A DNA stretch of 64,000 nt from Chitinophagales bacterium (GTDB taxonomy: Bacteria; Bacteroidota; Bacteroidia; Chitinophagales; CAIOSU01): the NCBI GenBank assembly GCA_026003335.1, contig BPHB01000001.1, positions 1,200,591 through 1,264,590 of the forward strand, given 5' to 3'. A program made the translations under genes and the position numbers. The notes beneath the pieces were generated by a model. The model searched no databases. It worked only from the letters and a program-made list of their open reading frames with translations, and was not told the origin of the DNA. Of the stretch, positions 2,810 through 56,069 are shown piece after piece (within the stretch, counting starts at the first letter, position 1; every line of letters starts with the position of its first letter).

Positions 2810-2811
2810 AA

Positions 2812-8800: not shown

Positions 8801-11800
8801 GTTGCACTATCGGTAGTACTTACCACTACACCACCTATCGTCCATACTTTACTATATGGCGGAGTACCTCCATTCAATCCGTTGACAAATGTTTTTCCGT
8901 CATTGGCTCCGAAACAGCTGATGTCGGTTTTTGAGGTGGTAAATACCATGCCGGGAATTTCGGTAATGGTGATGCAAGCGGTATCCTGACAACCGTTTGC
9001 ATCGGTAACTGTTACACATGCTGAACCGGGGCTGAGGTTAAAAGCAGTATCATTTGCAGAGGCGTTGCTCCATAGGTAATTATAATTTGGGGTTCCCCCG
9101 CTTACGGCTACCCATGCCTTGCCGTCAGCAGCTCCTCCGCAGCTTACGTTTTGACTGCCAAGGGTAAGCACCAGTGCCGAAGGTTGATTAATGGTAATAT
9201 TGGCAGAGGCCGTGCAGCTAAATGAATCTCTTACCGTAAGGGTGACAACACCAGCATTGAGATTACTCACTTTGGAGCTATCCAACGGATCGGGGTTACC
9301 TTTTGACCAGCTATAGCTGTAGCCGTTTGCTTTAGGAGTTCCCCCGGTAACGCTTACAGAGGCCGTGCCACTGCTGTCTCCAAAACAAAGGACATCCGTT
9401 TTTGAAAGTATCAGGTTTAGAGGAGGAGGTTCTGAAATGGTAACAGATGCAGTTTTAAAACAGGTGGAGTCGGCAACGTCTTTAATTGTCACGTTCACCG
9501 GGCCAGGGCCTAATCCGCTTACCATACTGGAACCGTAAGACGGGATACCTGCACTCCACACATAAATATAGCCGGACCCGCTGCCTCCGCTTGCCATCAC
9601 CTCAGCAGTTCCGTCTGTGAGCCCGTTACAGGTTATATCTTTTTTTGTTATGATGAGGGCTAGGGAGTCGGGCTGGTTAACGGCAATGGTGGCCGTGGCT
9701 GTGCACGTATTCTGATCTGTGACTGTGACAGCCGTAAATCCCACCTGAAGATTTGTGGCAAAAGAATCCGTGGAGCTGTTTGTCCACTGATAACCATAAG
9801 GAGGCGTTCCACCGGTAACACTTACCCAGGCTGCTCCGTTGCTGCCGCCATAGCAGGTGACATCTGTTTTGTTCAGGTTAAGCACTAAAGGGGTGGGCTG
9901 TGTAATGGATACGTTGGCGGTTACCGTACATCCGGCTGCATCCGTAACTGTTACCGAACATACCCCTGCACAGAGGCCTGTTGCCGTAGCAGAAGTTTGC
10001 CCATTGCACCACTGGTAGGTGTAGGGCGAAGTGCCTCCCGATGGGATAGCGGTGGCAATTCCTGTACACTGTCCATTACAGCTTACGTGTACCACACCGG
10101 TAAAAGAAACCGTAAGAGGAGCGGAGCCTGCAATGTTCACATTGGCAGAAGCTGTGCAGCCGTTGGCATCAGTTACAACAACGGTGGCCGTTCCGGGGCA
10201 CAAGCTGTCAGCATCAGGAGTGGTTTCTCCATTATTCCACAAGTATGTGTAAGGTCCTACACCGCCAGAAGGATTTGCCCGGGCTCTTCCATCACAGGAG
10301 CCGCTGCAAAGCGGGTCTACCACGTTTGAGATGGAAACCGTCAACTGCGCGGGCTGGGTAATATTAATGGTAAGCGTATCTGCACATCCACCCTGGAGCG
10401 TATCTGATACGGTTACAGTATATGTGCCGGCTGCCAGTGCCGTGCGGTTCTTGGTCATAGGCCCGTCACTCCAATGGTATGCGTACACTCCGGTACCCCC
10501 GCTTACATTAAGATGGATGGAGCCGGTGTTTTGTCCAAAACATAGTACATCCGTATCGTTGACCGAAACGATGAACTCGGGATTGACTGTTATATAATTT
10601 TCCAGCGTATCTGTCAAAGAGCCCCCCGGATAAACGGATGTAAGAATGACATCATAGATGCCGGGAGTATTGTAGCAGATATGTGGAGCGGAGTCATTGG
10701 ATGTAGCAGGAGTTCCCCCCGGAAAAACCCAACTATGTGAGCTCGGTTTTACGGTATTGTAATCACGAAATTTTACGCAATTGGTAGCGCATATCAGGGT
10801 ATCCTCTCCACCAAAAATCAGGTCAGGCAGAGTAGGATCTACAAAGCTGAATGCACTGCAAAGAGTTACATTGGATATTGTGCCAACGTTATTGGTAACG
10901 TCAATAGCTGCTGACGGTGGGGGTTGTAGCCAAATCTGACTGCCCGGATCCCATTGATGTGGTCGCATGAGGTTTTCGGTAATGGCATTACTACCGCTGC
11001 CCCACTCAGCATCCAGATAGGTGAACGACAGGCTAACCCGCGGAGAAGTGGAATACCCCCCGCAATCATATACCCAGAAGCGGTCCAGTTCTCTGGGTGC
11101 ATTTTCACTGCCTACAAAATTATTGAGGTTAGTAACCCCCGGAGGGAGAGGACGGTTGTTTACGGGTGGATAAGGATCGGTAGGATAGGTGGCACAGGAA
11201 ACCCATCCGTTACCTGAGGGCACCCCGGCTGTCTGTACGGTAAGAGTAAAAGGAATATAGGTATACGTTGTGGGGAACCATTGTACATGCTTGGCGAATG
11301 GAAATGTATATACCGTCCCCGGGGATGCATTATGGATATACCAGCGCAGGCTGCCGGGCGGAGTGGGAGTTTCGCTGATCAGATAGCCTGTTGGTTGACG
11401 CTGAATGGCAGCGGGTGAAGCATTTTCTATCCAGATATCATTTCCATTCATGAACAGGACATTATTACCAAGAATAAGGTTGTTTTTTACCCTTATATCA
11501 CCGGTAAGCTTGCGGGTTTGTTCCAGCGCGATGGTGTTGAATAACATGGTGGAAGAGGGACCTTCGCCATCAATGTAATACTCTGCGGTTACAGGTGTGT
11601 ATGGCCAGTAGGTAAAATTCACGTATGAGTTGAAGGTAAGCGCATCAACATTGCCCTGTATATAGGTCCAGTTTCGCTCTACCACAATGGTATCGCGCAG
11701 AGTCAAGGTGCCGGAGGGCTTATTTATCACTATATTGGGAAGGAAGCCACGGGTTTTCCAGGTTTGGCCCCAGAGTAGCTGGTTGCCGGTGCCATCAATG

Positions 11801-13008
11801 CTGATGATAGCATTGCCCCCGCAGTAATTGGTAGTGCCATTAGGTGTGGTTACTCTGATATCTCCTTTTGCCGAAATCGTTCCCTGGTACAGATCGGCCA
11901 GGTTGTTCCCCACTATTTCAAGAGTATTCATTACCGTAAGGGTATCTCCCGGGGCGATAGTTCTGGAGTGAAAGGGCACCTCACCCTGAAATTTGACATT
12001 GTACAGGGAAAACGTGCCGCTGATGGAATCCATCGTCAGGCTCCAGAACCATACTGTGGAAGTGCCATAGTTGATTATTCCCTTACGATAATGCAGGTCA
12101 GGTCCAATACGAATGTTCCCGATCAAATTCAGGGTGCCGGAAGGTTTATCAATAATGATATTTTCATACCAGGCGTCCTGAGCAGGGTTGGGATGCCCGA
12201 CAAGCCGTTGATTGCCGGTGCCGTTTATAATAATATTTACCGTACCATACCAGGGTTGCTGAGGAGCACTTACATAAGTCATGGTAATATCTCCTTGGGC
12301 ATATATCGTACCGGGACCGTAAATGCGGTTGTGCAGACCCACGCCTGTTTTAGTTAAGGTGTCCAGCACCGTCAGGATGGTAGAACTGCCGTTAATGTAA
12401 AAATCACGAGTTTGATCAAAGCACCGGAAATCCAACTTGTAAAAGGTAGCTGATCCTGTAATGTTTTTAAAGGTGCGCGGGTCACCTTTAAAGATGACCT
12501 TTCCGTTGTTATGGGCAAAATTTGCAGGGTTGGCCACGCTGAAATCACCGGCTACTATAAGTGCTTTAGCAGTACTGTTAAACAGGCTGGCGCCACTGAG
12601 ACTAAAAAGAGTGGTTAACCCGGGAGGAGATTCTATCACAATGTCGGCCGTTGAACTGCCGTTAAAGGTGCCTCCCGTCATTTTAAAACCCTCGCTACCG
12701 GCAACGAAAGCAGGGCTGGTGGAGCCACTTGGGAAAACAGTCAGGGTGAAACTATTTTGATTGAATACGCCTCCTGACATTTCAAAATGCGATACAGTGA
12801 CGTTGGCATCCAGATTACAGGTGCCGGATGTTATCAATACCTTGTCATTGGCTCCGGGTACTCCGTTGGGAGTCCAGTTGGCGGCTGTACCCCAATTACC
12901 TACGCCCCCATTCCAGGTGTATGCTACCGCACCGGCTTTTAAAAAGCCCAGCAAAAGAAATATGCCAACACATATTGCTTTTGGGGGAAAACTTAATCTT
13001 TGATGCAT
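2812..13008 (-). CDS. giant SprB-repeat surface adhesin, T9SS type B cargo
   Basis: A 3398-residue secreted protein. In order: signal peptide (about 1-28); a beta-helix-like region of short Gly/Asn/Thr-rich strands (about 30-700) with repeated Y-x-N-I-x-I-(D/N)-K-P-S-G-T-L motifs; one PKD-like domain (about 735-820); about 31 tandem SprB-type repeats of 70-100 residues (about 825-3180); a short Ig-like region with a C-A-D-C pair; and a C-terminal T9SS type B domain (NVITPNGDGINDVW, then IIVNRWGDEVF and PDGTYYYVIKL). Each repeat follows the pattern D-(V/I)-x-C-x-G-x-x-(D/N)-G, then G-G-T-P-x-Y-x-Y-x-W-S-x-G, then V-T-V-T-D-x-x-x-C. Repeats 15-19 form a shorter sub-type. SprB in F. johnsoniae is the mobile gliding adhesin. 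Gliding or attachment here is inference from the repeats and the adjacent SprF-like gene. Confidence 0.93.
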   Translation of the reverse strand: MHQRLSFPPKAICVGIFLLLGFLKAGAVAYTWNGGVGNWGTAANWTPNGVPGANDKVLITSGTCNLDANVTVSHFEMSGGVFNQNSFTLTVFPSGSTSPAFVAGSEGFKMTGGTFNGSSTADIVIESPPGLTTLFSLSGASLFNSTAKALIVAGDFSVANPANFAHNNGKVIFKGDPRTFKNITGSATFYKLDFRCFDQTRDFYINGSSTILTVLDTLTKTGVGLHNRIYGPGTIYAQGDITMTYVSAPQQPWYGTVNIIINGTGNQRLVGHPNPAQDAWYENIIIDKPSGTLNLIGNIRIGPDLHYRKGIINYGTSTVWFWSLTMDSISGTFSLYNVKFQGEVPFHSRTIAPGDTLTVMNTLEIVGNNLADLYQGTISAKGDIRVTTPNGTTNYCGGNAIISIDGTGNQLLWGQTWKTRGFLPNIVINKPSGTLTLRDTIVVERNWTYIQGNVDALTFNSYVNFTYWPYTPVTAEYYIDGEGPSSTMLFNTIALEQTRKLTGDIRVKNNLILGNNVLFMNGNDIWIENASPAAIQRQPTGYLISETPTPPGSLRWYIHNASPGTVYTFPFAKHVQWFPTTYTYIPFTLTVQTAGVPSGNGWVSCATYPTDPYPPVNNRPLPPGVTNLNNFVGSENAPRELDRFWVYDCGGYSTSPRVSLSFTYLDAEWGSGSNAITENLMRPHQWDPGSQIWLQPPPSAAIDVTNNVGTISNVTLCSAFSFVDPTLPDLIFGGEDTLICATNCVKFRDYNTVKPSSHSWVFPGGTPATSNDSAPHICYNTPGIYDVILTSVYPGGSLTDTLENYITVNPEFIVSVNDTDVLCFGQNTGSIHLNVSGGTGVYAYHWSDGPMTKNRTALAAGTYTVTVSDTLQGGCADTLTINITQPAQLTVSISNVVDPLCSGSCDGRARANPSGGVGPYTYLWNNGETTPDADSLCPGTATVVVTDANGCTASANVNIAGSAPLTVSFTGVVHVSCNGQCTGIATAIPSGGTSPYTYQWCNGQTSATATGLCAGVCSVTVTDAAGCTVTANVSITQPTPLVLNLNKTDVTCYGGSNGAAWVSVTGGTPPYGYQWTNSSTDSFATNLQVGFTAVTVTDQNTCTATATIAVNQPDSLALIITKKDITCNGLTDGTAEVMASGGSGSGYIYVWSAGIPSYGSSMVSGLGPGPVNVTIKDVADSTCFKTASVTISEPPPLNLILSKTDVLCFGDSSGTASVSVTGGTPKANGYSYSWSKGNPDPLDSSKVSNLNAGVVTLTVRDSFSCTASANITINQPSALVLTLGSQNVSCGGAADGKAWVAVSGGTPNYNYLWSNASANDTAFNLSPGSACVTVTDANGCQDTACITITEIPGMVFTTSKTDISCFGANDGKTFVNGLNGGTPPYSKVWTIGGVVVSTTDSATGLGPGQVIFSVTDANNCTVYDTLLIIEPDQLSVLINQKDVSCNGGSDACAWIDISGGTPSYAINWSTGSTLDSLCGLAAGTVSVTVTDANNCTVAGSTTINQPSALSVTVDRQDVSCNSLCDAKAWASVSGGTPGFTYSWSAGNPSALGDSTFNLCAGTVSVTVTDANNCTISANTTVTQPGPLTVTLYKEDISCFGVCDGKAGVHAAGGSGSFSFGTWSANGGITLAGGDSIIQLCAGTASITVTDGNGCTVNGSVNIVEPPQLQASLRGYDITCFGENNGAVAASASGGTPPYIHFWNPAGVGTPVGGDSLTNLPPGQICVAIRDNNGCADTACVNINEPNAIALVMDKIDVTCYGDTDGVAWVIASGGTVAAGGDYTYQWNRGTPLNEDTVRNLAPGPVTVIVRDDNQCADTAFVTIGEPAGMVLTLSKSDLSCSDARDGSAWVAVSGGNPPYSYTWNVSPQNTDSISGLSPGLVSVTVTDNLGCQASDTITISAPPVIAISASVGHVSCPGGNDGSLDVTVVGGTAPYTYQWSNGSNLEDLSALKEGLYTLIVTDQAGCREIGSFNVETATRIELSANVINATCGISNGKIDLTVLQGSGSGYLFQWTGGKNTEDIDSLSPGLYSVTVTDGACSQSLDSIIVENTAGPEMNAIIEDDSTCSSNRGSITLNITNGSGGYTVQWSNGFNTPGITGLSQGTYCVTVSDDTTGCISVACYSVGVSQGIVINGVVSDASCGSTNGTINVTLSQGVAPFTFAWSNGAVTEDITSLTAGVYTLSVSDASGCTAESTFAVNENGPSVTASVTPVSCYGRNDGSITLNVHGAHTFLWSNGAATQNVSNLYAGTYAVTVADSAQCTSVQVFAVSEPMPVRLIADKNDISCKGFNDGSINLTVSGGSGAFTFSWTGPSFSSASQHIDNLFAGDYTVVTTDAKGCNSSLTVSLSEPESLQTTLVFDSVSCGGLADGRAQVSVTGGVPSYSYQWSNGDDTPTADSLAAGYVTITVTDQNNCQVTDSIEVLEPPVLSVALSRVNISCFGETDGQATATASGGNPPYTYQWSNGDNTPTPDSLAAGYVIVTVTDAKSCSVIDSVEIVEPSQLTTSVIADSVDCHGDSSGIAVVTPSGGTPGYTYTWDAGSSSTDSLNTGLFAGVVHVTVTDSRGCVAVDSALVYEPTALSLVLNTTDNLCFGDSNGTARVTAVGGTPPFTYTWSSGTPAGNGDTVTNLQNGFVRVTVTDWHQCMAVDSAEINSPGPIALTLSKTDISCYGAHDGKASVVVTGGTPGTAVPYTYLWSEGTPPLDRDSTTGLGPGLVWVVVTDSLNCSASDTVVINEPAVITLTMDSTNITCFGDSNGTAQVTVSGGTPPFTYTWSSGTPQLPDSSSVIDLAPGIIIVTVRDSNGCTFQDSVNIYEPPVLTLSISHTDVACFGDSTGTATVSPSGGTPLYSYSWSAGTPLSGSPTVTKLPAGAVSATVTDANGCIASISDTIRQPATAISTVLTKTDVSCFGGSDGTAKVVASGGVPAAGGPAGYTYSWSAGTAVAPGDSVHSLPAGVVSVLVTDSNGCVHADSIEILQPALLTVTVRVDSNANCNGGTNGGLTVHVQGGTPNYSYTITAAPPLTNTPDTSYSVSGLGVGSYTAVVTDSKGCSSQATTSIGERPGPQIGPNDIVITRPTCNRADGAILILHTTADPPNQIQWSPSSPSPASGFNPTNLLEGLYTATITDASTCDTVLTIQLTDIAGPAVDFVKIKDSYCDDNDGRATAIITGGTPAYSFEWINGNGVSFATDSVITGLVPDLYSLIVRDANACDTQINFSIINVASPNAVILPQSPQTIYEGQVIDLQASSDIATVRYTWAPPDYLSCADCNAPSASPVKTISYQLIVTDTTTQCADTVFMTIIVKDETNIFIPNVITPNGDGINDVWRITELQEVFPDNEVIIVNRWGDEVFRKKGYQNDWDGTYRNKKLPDGTYYYVIKLHNIGKAVTGHVTILSN

Positions 13009-15577: not shown

Positions 15578-16906
15578 ATGAAAGGTGTGAAAAAAAGTTT
15601 TCTTGCTTGTCTGTTCCTGCTGAGTCTGCAGGTGCACGGGCAGCCGTGTATTGCAGACTTCAGCTACACTCTAAACGGGATGAGTGTAACTTTTCAAGAC
15701 CGGTCAACAGGCAATGCTGTAATCTTCCAGTGGAATTTCGGTGATGGCACCACGGGCAGTGGAAGAAACGTTACACACACTTATACAGTCCGGAGAAAAT
15801 ACACCGTAAGGCTTTCCATCAGTAATCCTAACAATCCGCAATGTTCCGACTTCCGGGATACTACTATCTGCGTAGGATGTGTTTTCCCCGGTGACGCCAA
15901 TAACGATGGGATTGTAAATAACAAAGACGTGCTGTACGTGGGGCTTGCCTTCGGGGCTATCGGCCCTGTACGTGCAGACACCTCCGGAACCCCAGATTTT
16001 ACGCCATCGCCACCATGGGTTTCGGTGCTGGGTCTTGCAAATCATCCGGGAGGAATTAATTACAACCATTCTGACTGTGATGGCAACGGCATTGTCAATC
16101 GCCATGATGTACGAATCATAGATAAGAACTACGGGTTACAGCCCACCCCCAAGAGTGGCGGCAACGGGTGTCTTAATACACAGGATGTACCTCTGTATTT
16201 TGAGGTTATTGACAGTATTCCTGCCGGTTCTGCCGTAACCATTGCGCTGCGCTTGGGCAATCTACAAGTGCCTGCGCACGATGCTTACGGCATTGCATTT
16301 ACAATTGTATATAACGCAGAGCTGGTGCGTGGCGAATACACGGATATTGACTACAGCGCATCCCTGTTGGGTCCGCCACAGGAAATTATTTATCTGAATA
16401 AAAACTTTCCCCTTAATGGAAGAATTGAAAGCGCAGTGAGCCGTATTGACCATAACGGGCTTACTCTTGCCGGAAAAATTGGCACCCTGAATTTCGTCAT
16501 GGAAGAAAACCTGGCCCAAAAAACCTTAATTACCAAAACCCTGAATCTGGCATTTGACAATGTATTTCTTATTCGCAGTGATGGCAGTGCAATTCCGGTT
16601 TGTGCGCACCAGGATTCAGCAGTGGTTTTCCAGAAACTGCTTACTTCCGGCCAGGCTGCTGAAGCAATCGGGAAAATCTTACTTTATCCGAACCCCGCCC
16701 GTGAATGGCTTACTATAGAATGCCCGCAGCACCGATGTGCATCTCTGCAACTGGTAAATATCTGGGGACAGAAGGTTGCGGAACTGCGGCAGGTATCGGA
16801 AAGCAGGATTTCTCTGCCTCTGGAAGGCATTCCCGAAGGATTGTATTTTATGATAATACAGGATAGCAACGGGGTTCAGATTTTTAAGATTGAAATTGCA
16901 CGTTAG
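15578..16906 (+). CDS. secreted PKD / dockerin-like / cohesin-like protein, T9SS type A
   Basis: A 442-residue exported protein. It has a signal peptide (1-22, ending QVHGQ) and a PKD domain (about 24-100) with the strand WNFGDGTTGSG followed by THTY. Next come two calcium-loop-like segments, GDANNDGIVNNKDVLYVG (about 105-122) and DCDGNGIVNRHDVRIID (about 167-183), arranged like a dockerin pair but with a 45-residue insert. A beta-rich region (about 200-345) resembles a cohesin or other Ig-like fold. The type A T9SS sorting domain (about 365-442) starts ILLYPNPAREWLTIE and ends in a basic strand. It is probably surface-attached or released. The next gene starts 1 nt after its stop, so the two form an operon. 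The cohesin assignment is tentative. Confidence 0.85.
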   Translation: MKGVKKSFLACLFLLSLQVHGQPCIADFSYTLNGMSVTFQDRSTGNAVIFQWNFGDGTTGSGRNVTHTYTVRRKYTVRLSISNPNNPQCSDFRDTTICVGCVFPGDANNDGIVNNKDVLYVGLAFGAIGPVRADTSGTPDFTPSPPWVSVLGLANHPGGINYNHSDCDGNGIVNRHDVRIIDKNYGLQPTPKSGGNGCLNTQDVPLYFEVIDSIPAGSAVTIALRLGNLQVPAHDAYGIAFTIVYNAELVRGEYTDIDYSASLLGPPQEIIYLNKNFPLNGRIESAVSRIDHNGLTLAGKIGTLNFVMEENLAQKTLITKTLNLAFDNVFLIRSDGSAIPVCAHQDSAVVFQKLLTSGQAAEAIGKILLYPNPAREWLTIECPQHRCASLQLVNIWGQKVAELRQVSESRISLPLEGIPEGLYFMIIQDSNGVQIFKIEIAR

Positions 16907-16907
16907 C

Positions 16908-19550
16908 ATGTGGACTAAGACAAAAAGGATATTCCTATTTACCTGTTTCTGGATGACAGGGGCAGTGTATGCCAATGCGCAGTGCGTAAATCCCGCCCTC
17001 ATTGACACTACCCAGACGTGCACGGGCTTTCAGCCTGTGTGTGGCTGCAACAATATCACCTATGTCAATGCCTGTGAGGCAGAATACTACGGAGGATTAA
17101 CCAATTGGTCGGCAGGTCCCTGCCCGACAGCGGCAGGTTGCCAGGCCAATTTTCAGATCAGCATTCAGACGAGCCCCTCGGCAGGATTTATCGTTGCTTT
17201 CCAGAATACTTCTATAGGGGCCTATACGTCATCAGAGTGGAGCTTTGGGGATGGAAGTTTTTCCATCATTACCAGTCCAACCCATACCTATACACAAGCA
17301 GGAAGTTACCTGGTTTGTCTGATTGTATCCGGTACCCCAAACTGCCGCGATACTATTTGCAAGCCCGTTGTGCTCAGTACCATCCATAGCTGTGTGGATA
17401 GCAACCGTATTAACCTTTTGCAACCATGTCCAACGGTTTACAACCCGGTGTGCGGCTGCGATGGGGTTACCTATTTTAATGATTGTGAAGCCAAATACCG
17501 CGGAGGTGTGACCCAGTGGACGCTGGGGTCCTGCCCGGGCAGCTCATTCTGTGAGGCAAGATTTAATTATAGCGTGTATACTGGCCCGATGGGTTATGCT
17601 GTGGTGTTTGATAATCAGTCCACCGGTCATTTCGATTTTTCTCATTGGGATTTTGGAAATGGCCTTACTTCTAACATAAAAAATCCGGTAATACCGCTTC
17701 CGGCCAATCATCTTCCGGCAATTCTTGAAGTTTGCCTGACCATCAGCGACAGCGCCCAAGCCTGCACAGATACTTATTGTCAATATATTAACCTGTCTCC
17801 TCCCGGGTGTTTTGAGCCCCTGGCTTTAGCACCTGGTAGGTCTTGCCCTGCGCTGTTTGATCCGGTCTGCGGATGCGATGGGAATACCTACTCTAATCCT
17901 TGTGAAGCCTTATATTACCATGGCATTACTTCGTGGACAGCAGGCACCTGTAATGCGCCCCATCCATGCCATGCAAGTTTCAGTTTTGTTGTTCAGGGCA
18001 TGCAGGTCAGCTTTACCAATACCTCTGGCGCAGGGGCTCAAATAACAAACTGGAACTTTGGTGATAACACCACCTCTACCTTGCGTAATCCCGTGCATAC
18101 CTATACGGCTGCGGGCAGATATACCGTTTGCCTTTCGGTGACAGATTCGGCAGGACATTGTCAGGATGTTTTCTGCAGCAGTGTTACCATTGCCGGTACG
18201 GGACAGCCCTGTCGCAACAGCAACATGATTAAAAACGTCCCTTGTCCCTCTACAATGAATCCGGTCTGCGGATGCGATGGCATCACATATAGCAATGCCT
18301 GCCGGGCGGAAAATAACGGGGTAACCAACTATACGGCAGGTCCCTGCATACAGCAGAATATTCAATCCTGCAAATCTTTCTTTACATTTCAGATTCAAAC
18401 CGGGTCCATAGGCTACAACGTCCAGTTCAACAACCAGGCAACAGGCAATGCCACTTCCTATAAATGGAGTTTTGGCGATGGAAGTATGCAAACAACAGTT
18501 AGTCCGTCCCACACCTACCTCATTCCAGGCAACTACACCGTATGCCTTACTATTGAAGATACAGTACTTAACTGTGCAGATACCTATTGTGAAAATATCA
18601 CCGTAGATGCCGGTATGTCCTGTTTCAGCCAATCGGTAATTGACTCACATATTGTCTGCCCTACTGTGATTGATCCGGTATGCGGATGTGACGGAAAAAC
18701 ATACGCGAATAGTTGTGAAGCTTACTACCGGCATGGAATCACATACTGGACAAAAGGTGCCTGCAACAATTCCTGTAGGGCTATATTCACTTTTACGGTT
18801 GACTCTACAGGAAAGGGCGTTTCTTTCAGAAATGCTTCTGTTGGCGGTTTATTTCAGTTATACTGGGATTTTGGTGATGGCAGGAGCTCAACAGCCGATA
18901 GTCCGTTTCACTACTATGACATAGAAGCACCTCAGGTATTCAGCGTTTGCCTTACCATATATGACAGTACTACCCATTGTACCGATCAGGTGTGCAGAAC
19001 AATAGCGCTCTCCGGTTTTCCGGTTCCCTGCGTCAACGGATTCATGCATTATGCCGATTCCACGGGTATGACTTTGTTTTTTGAAAGTCAGCTATCCGGC
19101 AATCCGAAAAATATTTTGTGGGATTTTGGTGACGGCACATCCGCCAGTAGCATTGCGCCCTATCACACTTACCTGCAACCGGGACAATATATTATTTGCC
19201 TGACGGTAAATGATTCGGCAGCCGGATGTTTTGACACCTATTGCGATACGGTAACCGTAATGGCTTACACCGCAATAACCGGAACAGAACCGCTCTCTGC
19301 CTTCCACATTTTCCCTAATCCATCAGCCGGAGTTTTATATGTAACATTCAACCTGCCGCGGGCGGCTTCTGTAAAAGCGGAAATGTTTAATGTGCTGGGT
19401 GGGGCTACTCCGCTAATGGGCAACACAGTCTTCTCTCCCGGTCGTACCAGGTTAACGCTGGATGTATCAGAAGTACCCCCTGGTCTTTATCTGATAAAAC
19501 TGGTCATAAACAACCAGCCCTATTATCAGCGTTTATATGTGGTTCGGTGA
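16908..19550 (+). CDS. secreted multi-Kazal / PKD protein, T9SS type A
   Basis: An 880-residue exported protein in which Kazal-like and PKD domains alternate. After the signal peptide (1-25, ending ANAQ) come five Kazal-like domains at about 26-75, 162-212, 298-347, 428-478 and 567-618, each with C-P-x4-P-V-C-G-C-(D/N)-(G/N)-x-T-Y-x-N-x-C. Six PKD domains lie at about 80-160, 213-297, 350-425, 482-565, 620-700 and 703-785, with W-(D/S/N)-F-G-(D/N)-G and a Cys pair each. A type A T9SS sorting domain (about 795-880) begins FHIFPNPSAG. Kazal domains usually inhibit serine proteases by a substrate-like loop, so a protease-inhibitor array is the natural inference; activity is not proven. The ATG at 16908 starts a clean signal peptide 1 nt after the previous stop. 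A TTG at 16890 would add six residues. Confidence 0.88.
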   Translation: MWTKTKRIFLFTCFWMTGAVYANAQCVNPALIDTTQTCTGFQPVCGCNNITYVNACEAEYYGGLTNWSAGPCPTAAGCQANFQISIQTSPSAGFIVAFQNTSIGAYTSSEWSFGDGSFSIITSPTHTYTQAGSYLVCLIVSGTPNCRDTICKPVVLSTIHSCVDSNRINLLQPCPTVYNPVCGCDGVTYFNDCEAKYRGGVTQWTLGSCPGSSFCEARFNYSVYTGPMGYAVVFDNQSTGHFDFSHWDFGNGLTSNIKNPVIPLPANHLPAILEVCLTISDSAQACTDTYCQYINLSPPGCFEPLALAPGRSCPALFDPVCGCDGNTYSNPCEALYYHGITSWTAGTCNAPHPCHASFSFVVQGMQVSFTNTSGAGAQITNWNFGDNTTSTLRNPVHTYTAAGRYTVCLSVTDSAGHCQDVFCSSVTIAGTGQPCRNSNMIKNVPCPSTMNPVCGCDGITYSNACRAENNGVTNYTAGPCIQQNIQSCKSFFTFQIQTGSIGYNVQFNNQATGNATSYKWSFGDGSMQTTVSPSHTYLIPGNYTVCLTIEDTVLNCADTYCENITVDAGMSCFSQSVIDSHIVCPTVIDPVCGCDGKTYANSCEAYYRHGITYWTKGACNNSCRAIFTFTVDSTGKGVSFRNASVGGLFQLYWDFGDGRSSTADSPFHYYDIEAPQVFSVCLTIYDSTTHCTDQVCRTIALSGFPVPCVNGFMHYADSTGMTLFFESQLSGNPKNILWDFGDGTSASSIAPYHTYLQPGQYIICLTVNDSAAGCFDTYCDTVTVMAYTAITGTEPLSAFHIFPNPSAGVLYVTFNLPRAASVKAEMFNVLGGATPLMGNTVFSPGRTRLTLDVSEVPPGLYLIKLVINNQPYYQRLYVVR

Positions 19551-23397: not shown

Positions 23398-26300
23398 CTA
23401 TTCTTGGGGACAGCCGTAGTTGGATGCTGGTCCCGGGATATTGGGACAATCATCCAACCGGTCTTCAATGCCATCGCCATCGGTATCGGGGCAGCCCTTG
23501 AATTGTGGCAGGCCAGCTTTGTAAGGACATTCATCCAGGCTGTTTATGATGCCATCGCCATCGCTGTCAATTCTATCATCGGTTTTATCCCTGGGATTGG
23601 TTTTATCCCGGTTCACTTCGTCACCATCATTTACACCACCGCCATCGGTGTCGGCATTCAGGGGGTCTGTTTTGGTGATGTTTATTTCCATACCATCATC
23701 TAAACCGTCATCATCGGAATCTTTTTTATTGGGATTTGTGGAATATGTATTGACTTCCACGTAGTCGCTGAGTTGATCTCCATCAGTGTCAGGATTGAGG
23801 GGATCGGTTCCAAGCCCGACTTCTTCTCCGTCAATAAGGCCATCCCCATCCGTATCGGGATTCCGCGGGTTGGTTTTTCTTGCCTTCTCATCTGCGTCAC
23901 TCAATCCGTCTTTGTCATTATCTTTGATTTTGATTTCCCGCACTTTATATTTTTTCTCTTTCTTGGCAATGACTTTGGTTATTTTGATACCCAGGAAAGC
24001 ATAATGGTCAAGCTTGTTGGGAGAATTTGTTTTCCTGCCATCGGGAAATGTAAAGGCGTCATTATATCCTGAATTGGGATTCGGACTATTGGGGTTGTTA
24101 TCTATAACACCCTGATCTACATTTACCAATGAGGGATTGGCCAGTAGTGCAGCAGTGTTGTAGGTGGTAGTGATTCCCGTATTGGGGTCGGTGAAGGTAA
24201 TGGTATTATCCAGGCGCACTTTCTCTCTTCCGGCTTTGCCCCAGATTTCAGGGTTTGCATCTACTATGGATTGGTGTGCTCCCAAGGGAATGCCTGTTAC
24301 CGGATCAATGAGCATATCCCCGTTGCTATTGTATCTGGCACGATCCCAGTAATAGCCTCCTACATCATCCAGATATTTGGTGGTAGAAATTCTCACTCCC
24401 AGTTCAATGCCCAAAGTCCACTTATTGTAGATGATATAATCAAGGGAAATACCAATAGGAAAGGAAACCTGAAAGCGGCTGTATTGTTTGGGTGCAAAAT
24501 GATCCTTATATAATTCGTAATTGGGGGAATTGTTGAGGGGATCGGCTTCAGGGTCTCTCCCACCTACGGTTTGACCTTCCGTACCTATGGGGCGCAGGGG
24601 CACCCACACATCTTTTCCTGAACCATCCGTCTGAAAGCTACCATCCCGGTAGGTGAGGTACACTGGATCGCTCTGATCATCTTTATACAGGTAGATACGA
24701 GCCTTGGGGTTGTTATTATGCAGTGCTATTCCGGCAAAAATGGTTGGAGTAAACTTCTCTCCGCGGCTGGTGCCGTATTTCAGCAGGTGCCAGTGGAAGG
24801 TAATACTGCCTTCAACCAGGTCATTGCGGAAGTTCAGTGCTCTGGCAGCACGGTCAGGGTCTTTGCTGCTGATTTCATTTCCTGAAATCCGGCCATACCA
24901 AAACATGGCCCTCAAAGAAATCCACTTATTGAGATTATACTGCCCGAAAAAGCCTGCAGAAAAATGAAATGCTGATGGCTCAATCAACTTGTAAGGCAGG
25001 GTCCCCATGTAGTTGGAAACCCCTAGCAAAAGACCTACTTCCCAGGTTTTGGTAAGTGAGCGATACGGACCTAATTGATTTATGCCTCCGATATTGGTGA
25101 GTGTTTCAATTGTTTTTACAGACTTCTCATCCGGCAGGAATGCTCCGCCCTCCACTTCCACGTTGATGGTACCGGCTTTTCTGCTGATAATATCTACAGT
25201 TCTGAGGCTGGGACCAGCCGTTCTTTTCAGGTTGTTAATGGCCTGCCGCCTGCCCAGCGTGAATTCCGGTACTATAAAGCCCTCTTCATCTTTAAAATTT
25301 TTCAGGATAGCATAGGCATAAGGATTTTTGACAAAAGCGGCATTGCTGGCAACAAAGGTGTAAGTCTTCCTGTCAGGCGACCATCTGGGCTGAGACAGGG
25401 CTACGGGAGCTTTTTGCAGAGTGCGCGAAATGGTATCATAAAAAACAGCCTCCAGTTGTACTTTATCAAAAGCTACCACAGGCTTATTGAAATGTAATTC
25501 AAACTGCACATTCCGGGGCTCCACATCCGGAATGGAGTCGTAGTTTTTTACTTCTACTCCGTTGATCAATACCTTCCAGATATGGGGCGGGGTTTCTTCT
25601 TTGGGTGCGGGCAACAGCGGCTCAGGTTTCAAAAGCGGCAGCCGGCTGTTTTGATAAAAGTGGTCGAAGGTGGACGACACATAATCCGGGTTTTTTGAGC
25701 GGAAAAAGTTATTGGGGATTTCAAAAAATTCACCATCACCCTGAATGCCGATACTTATTTCACGAATAATGGTATCCGTAGATGAATTGACCTGATAATT
25801 GCCGAAGATGGAGTTGTTTTCCATTTTCATCTTGTATTCAGCTCCGATGGCATCATAAAGACCAAACACGGGCGTATTGGAAGGTATGCCAATGTCTATA
25901 CCATAAACCACATTGTTGGTAATCAGGTTATTGTTGAATGTGAGTTTCAGAACGTTATCCTCAAAATTTTCAATAAAGATGGATCCCCAGTTATCATAAA
26001 ACGCATTGTAGGAAAACGAAAAGTTACAAACACTTTCTCCGGTAGCATCGTAAGGCATTACCGGACTGGTGATGAGGACATTGGATTCACCCGTAAAGAG
26101 TTCGGTGAAAACGTTTTTTTCAATAGTTACATTTTTACGATACCACTCTGACTCAAAGCGCAAGGGAATGTTCAGATTTTTAAACCAGGCATAACGGATG
26201 GTAATATCCCCTCCTTCGGTTCCCCGGACTACTATGCCATTGCCCGGGGTATTAGGGTTACGGCTGGTCAGTTCCACAAAATTGTTAGGTGCACCTGTAA

Positions 26301-26586
26301 TGGTGAGTCCCCCTTCCAATACAATGGATGTAGCGGGATCAAAGACAATGTGGGTGCCGGGATTAACCGTCAGACGTGCAGCCTTTCCGACCTTCACATT
26401 GAACTTTACCAGATACACTTTGTCCGCAGTCAGCGTTTTGTTCTCGTTGATAAATCCTTCCAGCGTAATGGTGTCCTTACCTGCTGGGCTGCGCTGGGCA
26501 TAGGAAGAAGATACGCACAAGCCCAAGGCTAAAGTCAGGGTTAACAGCGCACTTCTAAACCCGGTGATGATATTATTTCTACGCAT
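23398..26586 (-). CDS. large outer-membrane protein: beta-helix, barrel, thrombospondin type-3 repeats (paralogue 2)
   Basis: A 1062-residue exported protein. After the signal peptide (about 1-31, ending SSSYAQ) comes a right-handed beta-helix-like region (about 40-320: VYLVKFNVKVGKAARLTVNP, VEGGxTxxG-type turns, repeated N-N-x-(I/F) strands), then an Ig-like segment (about 345-450). A beta-barrel-like region (about 500-890) reads like the DUF6089 outer-membrane barrel (WEVGLLLGVSNYMGTL, RPIGTEGQT, KYLDDVGGYYWDRA). The C-terminus (about 900-1062) has seven Asp-rich thrombospondin type-3 calcium loops such as DTDGDGLIDGEE. There is no OmpA peptidoglycan-binding domain and no T9SS domain. It is a full-length paralogue of the preceding gene, 11 nt away, and the last gene of the gldL-gldM operon. 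The ATG at 26586 is preferred over a GTG at 26610 that overlaps the upstream gene. Confidence 0.85.
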   Translation of the reverse strand: MRRNNIITGFRSALLTLTLALGLCVSSSYAQRSPAGKDTITLEGFINENKTLTADKVYLVKFNVKVGKAARLTVNPGTHIVFDPATSIVLEGGLTITGAPNNFVELTSRNPNTPGNGIVVRGTEGGDITIRYAWFKNLNIPLRFESEWYRKNVTIEKNVFTELFTGESNVLITSPVMPYDATGESVCNFSFSYNAFYDNWGSIFIENFEDNVLKLTFNNNLITNNVVYGIDIGIPSNTPVFGLYDAIGAEYKMKMENNSIFGNYQVNSSTDTIIREISIGIQGDGEFFEIPNNFFRSKNPDYVSSTFDHFYQNSRLPLLKPEPLLPAPKEETPPHIWKVLINGVEVKNYDSIPDVEPRNVQFELHFNKPVVAFDKVQLEAVFYDTISRTLQKAPVALSQPRWSPDRKTYTFVASNAAFVKNPYAYAILKNFKDEEGFIVPEFTLGRRQAINNLKRTAGPSLRTVDIISRKAGTINVEVEGGAFLPDEKSVKTIETLTNIGGINQLGPYRSLTKTWEVGLLLGVSNYMGTLPYKLIEPSAFHFSAGFFGQYNLNKWISLRAMFWYGRISGNEISSKDPDRAARALNFRNDLVEGSITFHWHLLKYGTSRGEKFTPTIFAGIALHNNNPKARIYLYKDDQSDPVYLTYRDGSFQTDGSGKDVWVPLRPIGTEGQTVGGRDPEADPLNNSPNYELYKDHFAPKQYSRFQVSFPIGISLDYIIYNKWTLGIELGVRISTTKYLDDVGGYYWDRARYNSNGDMLIDPVTGIPLGAHQSIVDANPEIWGKAGREKVRLDNTITFTDPNTGITTTYNTAALLANPSLVNVDQGVIDNNPNSPNPNSGYNDAFTFPDGRKTNSPNKLDHYAFLGIKITKVIAKKEKKYKVREIKIKDNDKDGLSDADEKARKTNPRNPDTDGDGLIDGEEVGLGTDPLNPDTDGDQLSDYVEVNTYSTNPNKKDSDDDGLDDGMEINITKTDPLNADTDGGGVNDGDEVNRDKTNPRDKTDDRIDSDGDGIINSLDECPYKAGLPQFKGCPDTDGDGIEDRLDDCPNIPGPASNYGCPQE

Positions 26587-26597
26587 TTCAGTTGTGC

Positions 26598-29459
26598 TTA
26601 TTCGGGGCACCCTTGATTACTTTTAACTCCGGCAATGGTTGGGCATCTGTCTTTACCATCCACAATTCCATCGCGGTCTGTATCCTTTACCTTAGGATTT
26701 GTACCCAGTTCAATTTCCCTTTTATCCGGCAAGCCGTCCTCCTCTGTATCGGCTTTTTGAGGATTGGTTCCCATTTGTTTTTCTTCATTGTCTGGGATGC
26801 CATCATTGTCCGTATCGCGGGTGTAGGCATCTGGGCCAATGGTTTTATCTGGTGATTTGGCTTTGCTTTCGCGATCTTTTTTTCTTTTGAAGATATAACT
26901 GACTTTGACTCCACCGAAGAAATAGAGATCATAGTTATCCAGATTTTTATCTGATCTGCTACCTTCCGGATTGGGGAGGTCGCCCCGATGATATGCATAA
27001 TTACCATAGGTGTCGTAAGGGCTCAGCGGACTGTCAGGGGATTCCAGCTCGTTTACCCTTACCAGACTGGGATTAGCTGCCAGGGCAGCAATATGGTACG
27101 TTTCTATAAGATTATGATCGTCTTCAAAGGTTACCCAAAGGTCATCGCCCTGAATGGTAACCTTTTTATTTCCTGCCTTGGCTTTAACTGAAGGATTCGC
27201 ATCAATAATTGCCTGATGCCCGTTTGCGCGGTCATAATAGTATCCGCCAAGATCATCCAGATATCTGGAAGTGGTGAGGGTTACGCCAAAATGTGCTCCT
27301 ATGTTCCATTGTTGTCTGATAATCCAGTTGATTTCCATGCCCACAGGAAATCCAATCTGCACTTTGCTGTATTTTTTCGGGGGTTTGCGGTCGGGAAATT
27401 CAGCATCGGGGGTTTTAGCAGTCTGTCCCTCGGTACCAATATCGCGCAGACGCACCCACAGATCTTTACCCTGATCATACCCGTCAGTGTTATTGCGCCA
27501 GTCGGTTACTATCTGACCGTCTTTCCATCGGAGATAGCGCGGATAACCCTTTTCATCCAGAGTCATAAAAATTCTTGCTTCCGGGTTGTTGCGATAAAGG
27601 GCTATGCCGCCAAAGATGGTAGGCACAAATCTCTCCCCGCGGCTGGTGCCATATTTAAGCAGATGCCAGTGAAGCGTAAGACTGCCTTCCACGATGAGGT
27701 TTCTAAAGTTAGCCAGGCGTGCACGATCAGCCAGGCTGGAACTTTTAATATCATTACCTGATATCTGTCCGATCCAGAGCATGGCACGTAGCGAAGCCCA
27801 TTTATGAAAATTGTATTGACCGTAAATGCCTCCTGCAATATGCCAATGGTCGCGGCTGGCAAAGCGATCGGTCAGAGATCCTGTGTAGGCAGAGGCACCC
27901 AGCTGAATACCCAGCTCCCAGCTTTTCACCAGTGACTCAAAGGGACCCAGGTAGGATAGATCGCCCAGGTCCGTTAAGGCCCGCAGGGTTTTTACTGATT
28001 CCAGGCTCTTAAGAAACGCACCCCTTTCAATATCTACATCTAAGCCTTCCTGACCAGGCCGGCTGATAAGCTCAGCAGATTTTATTCCCCCACTTGCCGC
28101 TCTTTTGTAATTGTTTAAGGCTCTCACTTGTCCAAGGGTAAATGGGGGCACCTCCTGTCCGCTACGGTCACGGAAGTTGGATATCACCATGTAGCCCAGT
28201 GTATTTCCCAGGAAACTGGCATTGCTGACTGTGAAGGTAAATTTTTTCCTATCCGGTGACCATTGTCCATCAGATATAGCAACGGGAGTAACCAGCAGTT
28301 CGTTATTGGCTGTATCATACACAATGGATTCCACCTGATATTCTCCAAAAGGCTCTACCGGTTTGTTGAAAGAAACTTCAAAAGTCACATCCCGCTGTCC
28401 GACCTCGGGGATATTTCCGTAGTTGGCAATGTCCCGATTATTTATACGCACTTTCCAGATATGCGGAGGAAGGTTTTCAGAGGGTGCAGGTGCCACCGGT
28501 TCTACCTGTAGTAACGGCAGACTACTGTTTTGATAGAAATGATCAAAAGTGGAGGAAATATATCTCGGATCGGTGGAGCGGAAGAAGTTATTCGGTATAT
28601 TAAATACCTCTCCGGAACCCTGAATGCCTAATCCGATTTCGCGGATGATGGTGTCGGCAACGGAATTAATCTGATAGTTTCCGAAAATGGCATTGCCGGA
28701 GAAAGTGACCACATATTTGCTTTTTAGGTCATCGTATATTCCGTAAATGAGGGCGTTGGAGGGGTCGCCTTGTTTGACTGCATAAACCACATTGTTGGTG
28801 AACAGGTTGTCCGTGATTTTTAAATTCAGGACATCACTTTGCAGATTTTCAATAACCAGTGAGCCCCAATTACCGGTATAGGTGTTTTGTGAGAAATTAA
28901 ACTGAATGGTACGCCCTTTTACTACATCGGGTGAAGAAGCCGGGTTTGCGATATAGATGACCGGTTCTCCGGTAAGGATATTGGTAAAAATGCAATTTTG
29001 AATATTCACCGATGGTCTGAACCATCCGGCTTCAAAAGTCAGGGGCGTATTAACTCCGTTGAAGCGGGTGTATTGCAGAACAACTTCCTTGCCTTCGGTG
29101 CCGGTGATAATAAGTCCGTTACCGGGGCTTTTGGGGTTGCGGCTGGTAACTTCAATCCATGACCCCGGGGATCCGTTGAAGCGGACACCTCCCTCTGCCA
29201 CAATGGAGGTATTGAACTCCAGCAGGAAAGTGGTGTTGCCCGGAACTGTTAATACAGCATTCTTAGCGATTTTAACATTATGCTTCACCAGATAGACCTT
29301 TCCGGATGATAGTGTGCGATCGGCATTGATGAAGCCTTCCAGAACTACAGTGTCTCTAACGGGGCGTGTGTTGTCAGGGCTCTGTGCAAACAGAAATACC
29401 GGACATAGGATTAGAAGCGCATGCATGCATCTCCCTGCCGTGCCTGAACATTTTTTCAT
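26598..29459 (-). CDS. large outer-membrane protein: beta-helix, barrel, thrombospondin type-3 repeats (paralogue 1)
   Basis: A 953-residue paralogue of the next gene with the same domain order: signal peptide (about 1-25, ending FLFAQ), beta-helix-like region (about 35-320), Ig-like segment, DUF6089-like barrel (about 490-870) and only three thrombospondin type-3 loops (DTDNDGIPDNEE, DTEEDGLPDKRE, DTDRDGIVDGKDRC) at the end. Shared landmarks include TVVLEGFIN, EVTSRNPxxPGNG, NNFFRSxxPxYxSSTFDHFY and LRxIGTEGQT. The start is 19 nt after the gldM stop. I chose the ATG at 29459; a TTG two codons upstream is also open. Co-transcription with gldL/gldM suggests that its function depends on that motor, for example as an outer-membrane part that it drives, but this is inference. 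Confidence 0.85.
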   Translation of the reverse strand: MKKCSGTAGRCMHALLILCPVFLFAQSPDNTRPVRDTVVLEGFINADRTLSSGKVYLVKHNVKIAKNAVLTVPGNTTFLLEFNTSIVAEGGVRFNGSPGSWIEVTSRNPKSPGNGLIITGTEGKEVVLQYTRFNGVNTPLTFEAGWFRPSVNIQNCIFTNILTGEPVIYIANPASSPDVVKGRTIQFNFSQNTYTGNWGSLVIENLQSDVLNLKITDNLFTNNVVYAVKQGDPSNALIYGIYDDLKSKYVVTFSGNAIFGNYQINSVADTIIREIGLGIQGSGEVFNIPNNFFRSTDPRYISSTFDHFYQNSSLPLLQVEPVAPAPSENLPPHIWKVRINNRDIANYGNIPEVGQRDVTFEVSFNKPVEPFGEYQVESIVYDTANNELLVTPVAISDGQWSPDRKKFTFTVSNASFLGNTLGYMVISNFRDRSGQEVPPFTLGQVRALNNYKRAASGGIKSAELISRPGQEGLDVDIERGAFLKSLESVKTLRALTDLGDLSYLGPFESLVKSWELGIQLGASAYTGSLTDRFASRDHWHIAGGIYGQYNFHKWASLRAMLWIGQISGNDIKSSSLADRARLANFRNLIVEGSLTLHWHLLKYGTSRGERFVPTIFGGIALYRNNPEARIFMTLDEKGYPRYLRWKDGQIVTDWRNNTDGYDQGKDLWVRLRDIGTEGQTAKTPDAEFPDRKPPKKYSKVQIGFPVGMEINWIIRQQWNIGAHFGVTLTTSRYLDDLGGYYYDRANGHQAIIDANPSVKAKAGNKKVTIQGDDLWVTFEDDHNLIETYHIAALAANPSLVRVNELESPDSPLSPYDTYGNYAYHRGDLPNPEGSRSDKNLDNYDLYFFGGVKVSYIFKRKKDRESKAKSPDKTIGPDAYTRDTDNDGIPDNEEKQMGTNPQKADTEEDGLPDKREIELGTNPKVKDTDRDGIVDGKDRCPTIAGVKSNQGCPE

Positions 29460-29478
29460 ATACAAAATTGGCGTAGCT

Positions 29479-31128
29479 TCAGATAATGGTAAAGACCAGC
29501 GGCTCCACGTCTATATTTCTGCCGTCAGGCCCTTTTATCTTTATATTTTCAAAAATGTAAATATCCCCCGGTTCAGCTAAGTTAATTAATTCCAGGGATT
29601 TATCTGTAAAGTAGGACCCTTTCACATGTTCGCGGAAAATACCCAGCCCGGCTTTGTTTACATACACAACATTAAACTCAATCACCCGGAACTTGGCATC
29701 TACTTTTAATCCCTGGATATCTGCATGCAGTTCTCGCTGTTTTTTGAATATACTTGCCGGCATTTGCCCGCCATAGGAATTATATAGTTTGGCTCTGGGT
29801 TGGGGCAGCTCTTCAGCCTTGAACTCCTGGACGGCAACCTTCTTAAAACCTCCTCCCTGGTCGGGCACCGAAAGGGTAACAGTTACCAACCCCGGCCTGT
29901 AAACGCGGGCATAAAAATTACGGCCGTCATAGCTGATTTTTCCCTGCGTGATAGAGACGTTGTAGTTTTCCGGGGAATAATCGGGATGATAAACGCGCAG
30001 GGGGTTGTTTACTCCGATATAGAGTACCTCATAATCCAGGCTGGAGATGAGTGGCTTGGCCGGATTAACTACCGAATAGTTTAGTTCAAAGGTGCTTTCG
30101 CCTTCTTTTTCCTTCGCATCAGCCTTCTCTTGATCTTCTCCCTGATCGCCTTCACCAATACCTTCATCTGGGTAGCGGTACTTCACTACGCCTTTGATTT
30201 TAAATTCGCCTATTTCATCGGTCCTCAGGCTGATTTCTCCCACTCCTTCTTTGAAGAGAAAGCTGTCAATGATTTTATTGTTCTGGTCATAGGTATAAAT
30301 CACAGCGGATTTGACCACTTCGTCAGGGGCATCGGGCATAGTTACTTTGTAAACGGCCTCCTCGCCTACTTCAAACACATTACCGCCACGGTCTTCCCGT
30401 TCAAGCATGATGGTATCAAAGTCAAAAATATCTTCGGAGGCAGCTCTTTTGGCCAGAACAAAGCTGATGCCGTTTTCAGCAAGTTCATAGTGTTTATTGA
30501 TAACCAAAGCCTCGGCCAGTCGGACATCATTCTGGAATTTTGTGAGCAGCGCCACCACCGCGCCAAGCGGCACGTTGTCAAAGTAGTATTTCTCCCATTC
30601 ATATATTCTTCCGTCCGCCTTGGTTATGGTTTCTGTGGTCACAAGTACTGAATCCAGCATGGTTTGCTCTTCAGGCCCCAGGAGCTTAAGCAACTCCGCT
30701 TTGGTTTTGAAAAGTACATCTTTGGTTTGCCGGGCAACCCCGTCATAAATCATTCTTCGGGTTGGGATAGTGGCGTCAATGGCATTAATCAGGTGATGGC
30801 TTTCCGGGTCGTAGCCCTTGCCTCTTAAAATCAAATCCTGTTTGATGCTTTCCAGGAAGTTAATGGCCGAATCACTGGCTGCCTTGGCCGTAACAATATT
30901 GGCATAGACTCTGGCAAAGCGGGCTGAATCTAATCTAGAAAATTCACTCACCTGCTTCATGGCTTTCCTGTTGCGCTGATCCAACCGGTAATTAGCCCGC
31001 TCCAGGGTACGGTTCAGATCGGTAAATGCTTCTATAAATTCCACCGGCAGATTAAGCACAATCATCCCGATCAAAACCAGGTAAAGGAGGTTAATCAGTT
31101 TTTGTCTGAGCGGATTGGTGCTTCTCAT
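29479..31128 (-). CDS. gldM: GldM/PorM-like type IX secretion motor component
   Basis: A 549-residue protein with the GldM layout. A short basic N-terminus (RSTNPLRQKLINLLYL) with the conserved Arg before the transmembrane helix (about residues 8-29) is followed by a helical periplasmic region (about 30-220) and then a series of Ig-like beta domains to the end. GldM dimers are held by GldL in the inner membrane and transmit proton-motive-force-driven rotation across the periplasm to the outer membrane for T9SS and gliding. Characterised GldM is a little over 500 residues, so the length fits. An unusual charged linker (GEGDQGEDQEKADAKEKEGE, about 328-347) interrupts the domains. gldL lies 40 nt upstream. 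The usual downstream gldN is replaced by two large outer-membrane genes. Confidence 0.88.
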   Translation of the reverse strand: MRSTNPLRQKLINLLYLVLIGMIVLNLPVEFIEAFTDLNRTLERANYRLDQRNRKAMKQVSEFSRLDSARFARVYANIVTAKAASDSAINFLESIKQDLILRGKGYDPESHHLINAIDATIPTRRMIYDGVARQTKDVLFKTKAELLKLLGPEEQTMLDSVLVTTETITKADGRIYEWEKYYFDNVPLGAVVALLTKFQNDVRLAEALVINKHYELAENGISFVLAKRAASEDIFDFDTIMLEREDRGGNVFEVGEEAVYKVTMPDAPDEVVKSAVIYTYDQNNKIIDSFLFKEGVGEISLRTDEIGEFKIKGVVKYRYPDEGIGEGDQGEDQEKADAKEKEGESTFELNYSVVNPAKPLISSLDYEVLYIGVNNPLRVYHPDYSPENYNVSITQGKISYDGRNFYARVYRPGLVTVTLSVPDQGGGFKKVAVQEFKAEELPQPRAKLYNSYGGQMPASIFKKQRELHADIQGLKVDAKFRVIEFNVVYVNKAGLGIFREHVKGSYFTDKSLELINLAEPGDIYIFENIKIKGPDGRNIDVEPLVFTII

Positions 31129-31168
31129 AAGCCGTTTCTACGGGGCCGTGGTTAATGAAGGTTATGGT

Positions 31169-31702
31169 TTATTTTTTACTATTATGGCCAAATACCTCAA
31201 GCATTTTCTCATAATAGGCATTCATTTCAGCGATACTCTTGTTTAGCCGGATGACTTCGTCTTCAAAGGTTTCTGAGGCCTGTTTCATTCTTTCAATATG
31301 TTCGGCAAACTGTGCCATGTTGGACACTTCAGTCATCTTGGTAATATTCTGCTCCAGGAGCTCAATGCTATGGGTGAGCTTTTCAATCACTACAGGATCC
31401 AGGTTTGCCTGCTCTACAAGCTGCTCCAGCCGCTCAATGGGAGATTCTTCTTCTTTCACCAGCTGGGGAAAAAGTTTTTCCCACTTATAGTCTTTCTCCA
31501 CCTTGCGGGGCTCAAAAGCGGATATGAAGAAAACAAGGGCTTCGGTTGCCAGCCCGATAAACAAAAATTCGTTGGCATAGCGCCAGTGCAAAAACTTCGC
31601 AAGCAGCCCAAATATTACCACTGCGGCCCCTATTCCGTAAGCCATATTCAGCGGATCAAGCTTGTATCCGGACGCTTTCCTTTTATCTTGTTTTACAGCC
31701 AT
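31169..31702 (-). CDS. gldL: GldL/PorL-like proton-driven motor subunit
   Basis: A 177-residue inner-membrane protein with two transmembrane helices (about 20-38 and 45-63) and a helical cytoplasmic tail. All residues reported as essential in F. johnsoniae GldL have counterparts: Tyr22 (in MAYGIGAAVV), Lys36 and His39 (AKFLHW), Glu54 (TEALVFF) and Glu64 (AFEP). The loop between His39 and Glu54 is about four residues shorter than in the F. johnsoniae protein as I remember it. GldL pentamers surround a GldM dimer and convert proton flow to rotation. The cytoplasmic tail is a likely coiled coil (about 90-170). It heads a four-gene operon with gldM and two outer-membrane proteins, 118 bp from clpX. 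Confidence 0.9.
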   Translation of the reverse strand: MAVKQDKRKASGYKLDPLNMAYGIGAAVVIFGLLAKFLHWRYANEFLFIGLATEALVFFISAFEPRKVEKDYKWEKLFPQLVKEEESPIERLEQLVEQANLDPVVIEKLTHSIELLEQNITKMTEVSNMAQFAEHIERMKQASETFEDEVIRLNKSIAEMNAYYEKMLEVFGHNSKK

Positions 31703-55952: not shown

Positions 55953-56069
55953 GCCAGCATGTACAATTAGCTTATTCATCGGCTGTTATTCTTCTGGTAT
56001 GTGCTTTGAGGTTTGAATAAAAATTGTAAATTTTACGTCCCTTTTTTTTCACAATCACATTCACCGGTA

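Follow-up and report, generated by a model that had tools for sequence, protein, structure and literature searches.

The only role known for GldLM is to power type IX secretion (T9SS) and gliding by way of a GldKN ring or track. What does a gldLM pair do that adjoins genes for two large outer-membrane proteins (OMPs), with gldK and gldN on neither flank? We addressed this question for a locus in a 64,000-nucleotide stretch of a Chitinophagales genome, referred to here as the window. A preliminary description of its DNA had read four minus-strand genes as GldL, GldM and two paralogous OMPs, a reading that open reading frames and domain matches confirmed: gldL2, gldM2, OMPa and OMPb run from 31702 to 23398, and the intervals between them, measured from ATG starts (available for both OMPs), are 40, 19 and 11 nt. 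The reported absence of gldK and gldN from both flanks, which are occupied by clpX upstream and cysS downstream, also held. In a promoter and terminator scan, sites were no more numerous than in shuffled sequence.

Table 1. Genes and protein regions of the second gldLM locus (window positions)
Feature	Position	Strand	Description
gldL2	31169..31702	-	divergent GldL, 177 aa; two TM helices and a short cytosolic tail
gldM2	29479..31128	-	divergent GldM, 549 aa; N-terminal TM helix and periplasmic domains D1-D4
OMPa	26598..29459	-	953 aa; signal peptide, beta-helix, Ig-like domain, predicted 8-stranded PorG-like barrel, short TSP3 tail
OMPb	23398..26586	-	1062 aa; architecture as OMPa, with a longer TSP3 tail
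OMPb beta-helix and Ig-like module	25177..26499	-	system-identifying region (profile A10)
OMPb predicted 8-stranded barrel region	23968..25047	-	residues about 514-873
OMPb C-terminal linker and TSP3 repeats	23398..23934	-	none in relatives

The same contig carries a full canonical porP-gldK-gldL-gldM-gldN cluster about 0.19 Mb from this locus, and besides the second gldLM the genome has one GldK and one full sprA. The pair is thus a second gldLM, as had been proposed, and the alternative then offered, that it is the sole copy in a genome with scattered gldKN, was rejected on the strength of the complete canonical cluster.

Several other genes of the window and its genome were noted. A SprB-like adhesin of 3398 aa (1811-13008, minus strand) contains 27 SprB repeats plus a T9SS sorting domain of type B. 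A PorP/SprF-family gene follows it, as is classical for gliding adhesins, and the pair lies about 10 kb away from the second motor operon. A second SprB-repeat protein (56013-58880, plus strand), with a CHU_C/type B sorting domain, adjoins a TonB-dependent receptor gene. A secreted protein of 886 aa (16890-19550, plus strand), recognized by eye in the translation, has Kazal-like units (CGCDGxTYxNxCEA) alternating with PKD-like units and a T9SS-like tail. Elsewhere in the genome (L143, 9368-11216), two adjacent genes for PorG-like barrels lie beside uppS-like and bamA-like genes; one of the two products has a C-tail cysteine and the other has none.

GldL2 matched Pfam GldL_N (E=1.9e-25) and TIGR03513 (103 bits, above the equivalog cut-off of 68.3), and its closest relatives of solved structure are PorL/GldL. 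Its cytosolic part is much shorter than that of the canonical GldL of the same genome, which has 269 aa. Five residues of GldL2, Tyr22, Lys36, His39, Glu54 and Glu64, had been put forward as kept counterparts of those needed for proton flow, a claim that survived in part. Lys36 in TM1 and Glu54 in TM2 are present in every second and canonical GldL aligned, and Glu54 corresponds to F. johnsoniae E49, the essential proton-relay glutamate (PMC8986121). Tyr22 is kept in all second copies, whereas His39 is replaced by Asn in most of them. Glu64 is equivalent to F. johnsoniae E59, which is required only for movement of the adhesin SprB (PMC8986121). It occurs in the second copies of families f1 and f69 but is lost in those of two distant genomes, G576 and G636; conversely, it is missing from the canonical GldL of the genomes whose close second copies keep it, and present in some canonical GldL of other families. 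This distribution led us to reject Glu64 as proof that the motor serves gliding; its retention in close second copies is only a hint in that direction. The GldL-like protein of G636 (L138, 5701-7254) is, at 517 aa, about three times as long as GldL2, and only its N-terminal GldL region is recognizable.

GldM2 contains the Pfam GldM_1st, GldM_3rd and GldM_4th domains, all three above cut-off, and scored 161 bits with TIGR03517, just below the equivalog cut-off of 180. Its closest relatives of solved structure are PorM/GldM, and the alignment spans their domains D1-D4, with D3 and D4 retained. In the full-length model, confidence past D1 is too low to judge the surfaces of D2-D4.

We searched with a profile of the OMP pair, within the window's family and then across the order (399 genomes). 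Full-length relatives were found in all seven genomes searched of the family, representing three genera. Their loci have gldL2, gldM2 and a single OMP gene on one strand, one short contig starting inside the operon. Across the order, four more genomes emerged: G414 and G416, each from a different additional family, and the very divergent G576 and G636, both from a fourth; these loci likewise encode a GldL-like protein, a GldM-like protein and an OMP, the contig of G416 ending within gldM2. This brings the genomes with full-length OMP genes to 11, in four families (f1, f69, f71 and f2). In all 11, gldM2 or its end lies directly upstream of the OMP gene, and gldL2 precedes gldM2 in each of the nine whose contig extends far enough. 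The gene order is therefore kept in related genomes wherever the contig shows it, which answers a question that the preliminary description had raised. In G815, a 5'-truncated OMP copy that ends at its contig edge is a possible further member, which would be the twelfth. The neighbors of the operon vary between lineages; in the relatives, no gldK or gldN lies in its flanks, and the operon has no conserved gene for a transporter, binding protein or enzyme. Nine of the 11 other carriers each yielded a single canonical GldK, and the two in which none was found are genomes of 90% and 57% completeness. The unit is thus a set of three genes, thinly spread over one order.

Among 396 genomes across the phylum, 95 had the GldM first domain, and two matches were found only in G000, G045, G084 and G317; the second matches of the last three are partial, and very divergent copies would escape the model. 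Beta-helix matches in distant classes (G124, G260, G334 and G188) were rejected, since these proteins have T9SS-tail-like ends and no adjoining GldLM. Many genomes of the order have additional GldM genes, which were likewise rejected as members, because most are canonical or are orphan GldM or GldM-GldN duplicates nested in canonical GldM. In a sister genus, orphan GldM paralogs without GldL (L101, 9481-11109; L188, 9322-10950; L187, 9191-10819) sit on a long branch next to their family's canonical GldM. In family f64, a doubled gldM-gldN directly follows gldKLMN, or a separate gldM-gldN pair lies elsewhere (L093, 7595-14984; L090, 8955-11438).

Phylogenetic trees separated the second copies from the canonical ones. 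The larger GldM tree comprised 48 sequences, among them nine second copies; besides the order, it sampled six other families of the class. All nine second copies fell on one side of a branch with support of 100/98, and the orphan duplicates grouped with the canonical copies. The GldL tree had the same split (98/96). An earlier GldM tree, confined to the order and including G636, its longest row, gave the second copies support of 95/77; G636 was excluded from the two larger trees. The deepest members, G636 and G576, have very long branches, and that of G576 calls for caution. The expectation that OMP-linked GldLM copies form a clade was thus borne out, and the outcome that would have spoken against it, a grouping with canonical sequences, was not observed. 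Judged from the sequences, the second GldM and GldL make up a lineage of their own, apart from all canonical copies sampled. Between genomes, GldL2 is as conserved as canonical GldL (56-58% identity each), and GldM2 reaches 42-51% compared with 50-58% for canonical GldM. Conservation near the canonical level indicates that the motor is maintained.

OMPa and OMPb share 48-49% identity, and both have a DUF6089/PorG-like barrel and TSP3 repeats. In the OMP tree they are sisters (support 100/100), OMPa being the more diverged duplicate. Two giant TSP3-bearing OMPs had been described beside the motor genes; this is true here but not of the system at large, since the relatives have a single OMP without a TSP3 tail. 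Doubling of the OMP and the TSP3 tails are private to this genome and are not defining parts of the system. Neither OMP matched TIGR04183, TIGR04131 or CHU_C, and the possibility that they are T9SS cargo was rejected, because neither has a C-terminal sorting domain of type A or B.

The N-terminal half of both OMPs is covered by no Pfam family, and a profile of the beta-helix gave nothing significant against solved structures; in most genome pairs, this beta-helix is the best conserved structured part. The structure models had low mean confidence (pLDDT 54 and 52), although in the OMP model, whose mean is 54, values rose to about 80-90 over the initial part of the beta-helix and to 60-90 across the Ig-like domain. 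In the OMPb model, the beta-helix starts at residue 39, the Ig-like domain spans residues 336-432, and eight barrel strands are predicted (514-526, 541-551, 556-568, 586-600, 612-630, 705-719, 723-734 and 861-873). Foldseek returned OmpA and OmpW as top matches, and the assignment as an 8-stranded outer-membrane barrel carries moderate confidence. The modeled connections are short after strands 2, 4 and 6 and longer after strands 1, 3, 5 and 7, those after strands 5 and 7 having about 75 and 127 residues. Under the rule generally applied to barrels of this kind, this alternation of short turns and long loops would put both barrel ends in the periplasm. Going by strand count and turn lengths in the model, the beta-helix/Ig module before the barrel and the TSP3 tail after it are probably periplasmic.

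The barrel matched the PorG model NF052316 (E=2e-27, 6e-29 and 7e-21), with scores of 59-101 bits, below the equivalog cut-off of 130 in all members tested. In the canonical chain, GldLM drives the GldKN(J) track, and PorG and SprF are joined to GldK Cys343 by disulfides of their C-tail cysteines (PMC12635249). A PorG-type cysteine is absent from the OMPs: the mature proteins of five relatives have no cysteine at all, and in OMPa and OMPb one cysteine lies in the beta-helix and the remainder in the TSP3 tail.

On these grounds we favor, with somewhat more than even confidence, the view that the locus encodes a dedicated, proton-driven machine spanning the envelope, with GldM2 working on the OMP without GldKN as an intermediary. 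GldL2 and GldM2 would form the inner-membrane motor, a 5:2 motor from an old GldLM lineage distinct from the canonical one. The long periplasmic shaft of GldM2 would act directly on the periplasmic beta-helix/Ig module of the OMP, a contact suggested by the co-occurrence of the two genes. Within one polypeptide, the fused module would replace both the GldK/GldN track and the disulfide-linked PorG. A PorG-like barrel fits a place at the outer-membrane end of the GldLM energy chain. Given also the lack of PorG-type cysteines, the lack of gldK and gldN in the operon and a module on the side expected to face GldM, it is simplest to suppose that the module stands in for track and disulfide. The output, presumably rotation or force, would set in motion, put under tension or switch the barrel, its long surface loops or a partner bound to it. 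It is most likely mechanical rather than protein export through the barrel, because a barrel of OmpA size has no protein-conducting pore.

The most serious competitor, which we nevertheless consider unlikely, is that GldL2M2 is an auxiliary stator that docks via D4 on the canonical GldKN track, with the OMP as an alternative PorG on this track, adding or controlling force. PorM D4 contacts PorN in the canonical system (PMC12421860), so retention of D3 and D4 in GldM2 makes such docking possible; the single GldK of this genome, the canonical GldK of nine of the 11 other carriers and the PorG-like barrel are also in keeping with it. The separation of the second clade from canonical GldM and GldL argues against it, as does the lack of the PorG C-tail cysteine, and the large N-terminal module of the OMP would be superfluous for riding a track.

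Less probable still is a TonB- or Tol-like role, in which GldL2M2 would energize the OMP for uptake, sensing or outer-membrane integrity, with the beta-helix binding glycan or cell wall and no motion being produced. Such a role suits a three-gene set made up of a pmf motor and an outer-membrane barrel. Beta-helices commonly bind polysaccharides, and the TSP3-bearing tails of this genome also point that way. However, a barrel of eight strands leaves too little room for a transport channel, the operon keeps no gene for transport, substrate binding or catalysis, and the module has no sequence match to any solved protein. Finally, GldM2 falls below the NCBIfam equivalog cut-off and GldL2 has a much shortened cytosolic part, as a recent gldLM duplicate decaying without a function of its own might, but intact frames, identity across genera similar to that of canonical copies, separate deep clades and an operon kept in four families make such decay highly improbable.

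On the most far-reaching reading, the locus would represent a distinct class of proton-powered trans-envelope machine of Bacteroidota outside known secretion and gliding, in which a GldLM-type rotary shaft drives an outer-membrane barrel directly via a fused beta-helix without track, ring or disulfide; we consider the chances of this evenly balanced. A GldLM lineage of its own that works with a single outer-membrane protein and no ring would mean that the motor can be reused as a module. The minimal three-gene system would let one ask how GldM motion becomes outer-membrane work. For annotation, a gldL or gldM match alone does not prove a type IX system. The open-access literature searched, outside which most subscription papers lie, contained no description of second copies, paralogs, ringless GldLM or beta-helix/PorG fusions.

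Compared with the GldLM (PorLM) of T9SS and gliding, the second system has the same GldL_N and GldM domains, the L-M gene order, the D1-D4 shaft, the E49-equivalent glutamate and Lys36. It differs in its separate clade, the absence of gldK and gldN from the operon, the short GldL tail and an OMP of its own, and it coexists with the canonical set. Similarly, the OMP shares with PorG, the 8-stranded outer-membrane component of T9SS, matches to NF052316 and DUF6089 and eight predicted strands; by contrast, it scores below the equivalog cut-off, carries a fused beta-helix/Ig module of about 450 residues, lacks the C-tail cysteine for GldK linkage and adjoins its own gldLM. The orphan GldM and GldM-GldN duplicates of the same order are likewise extra GldM genes in Bacteroidota genomes, but in trees they are nested in canonical GldM, close to the copies from their own family, and they come without GldL and OMP. 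With ExbBD-TonB and TolQR-Pal, which are also 5:2 pmf motors, the system has in common an inner-membrane proton motor, a periplasmic arm and an outer-membrane partner without a dedicated ring; here, however, the motor proteins are of the GldLM family, the arm is the Ig-domain shaft of GldM, and a barrel with a probably periplasmic module of its own serves as partner. The motor belongs to a known family; an arrangement of this kind did not appear in the literature searched.
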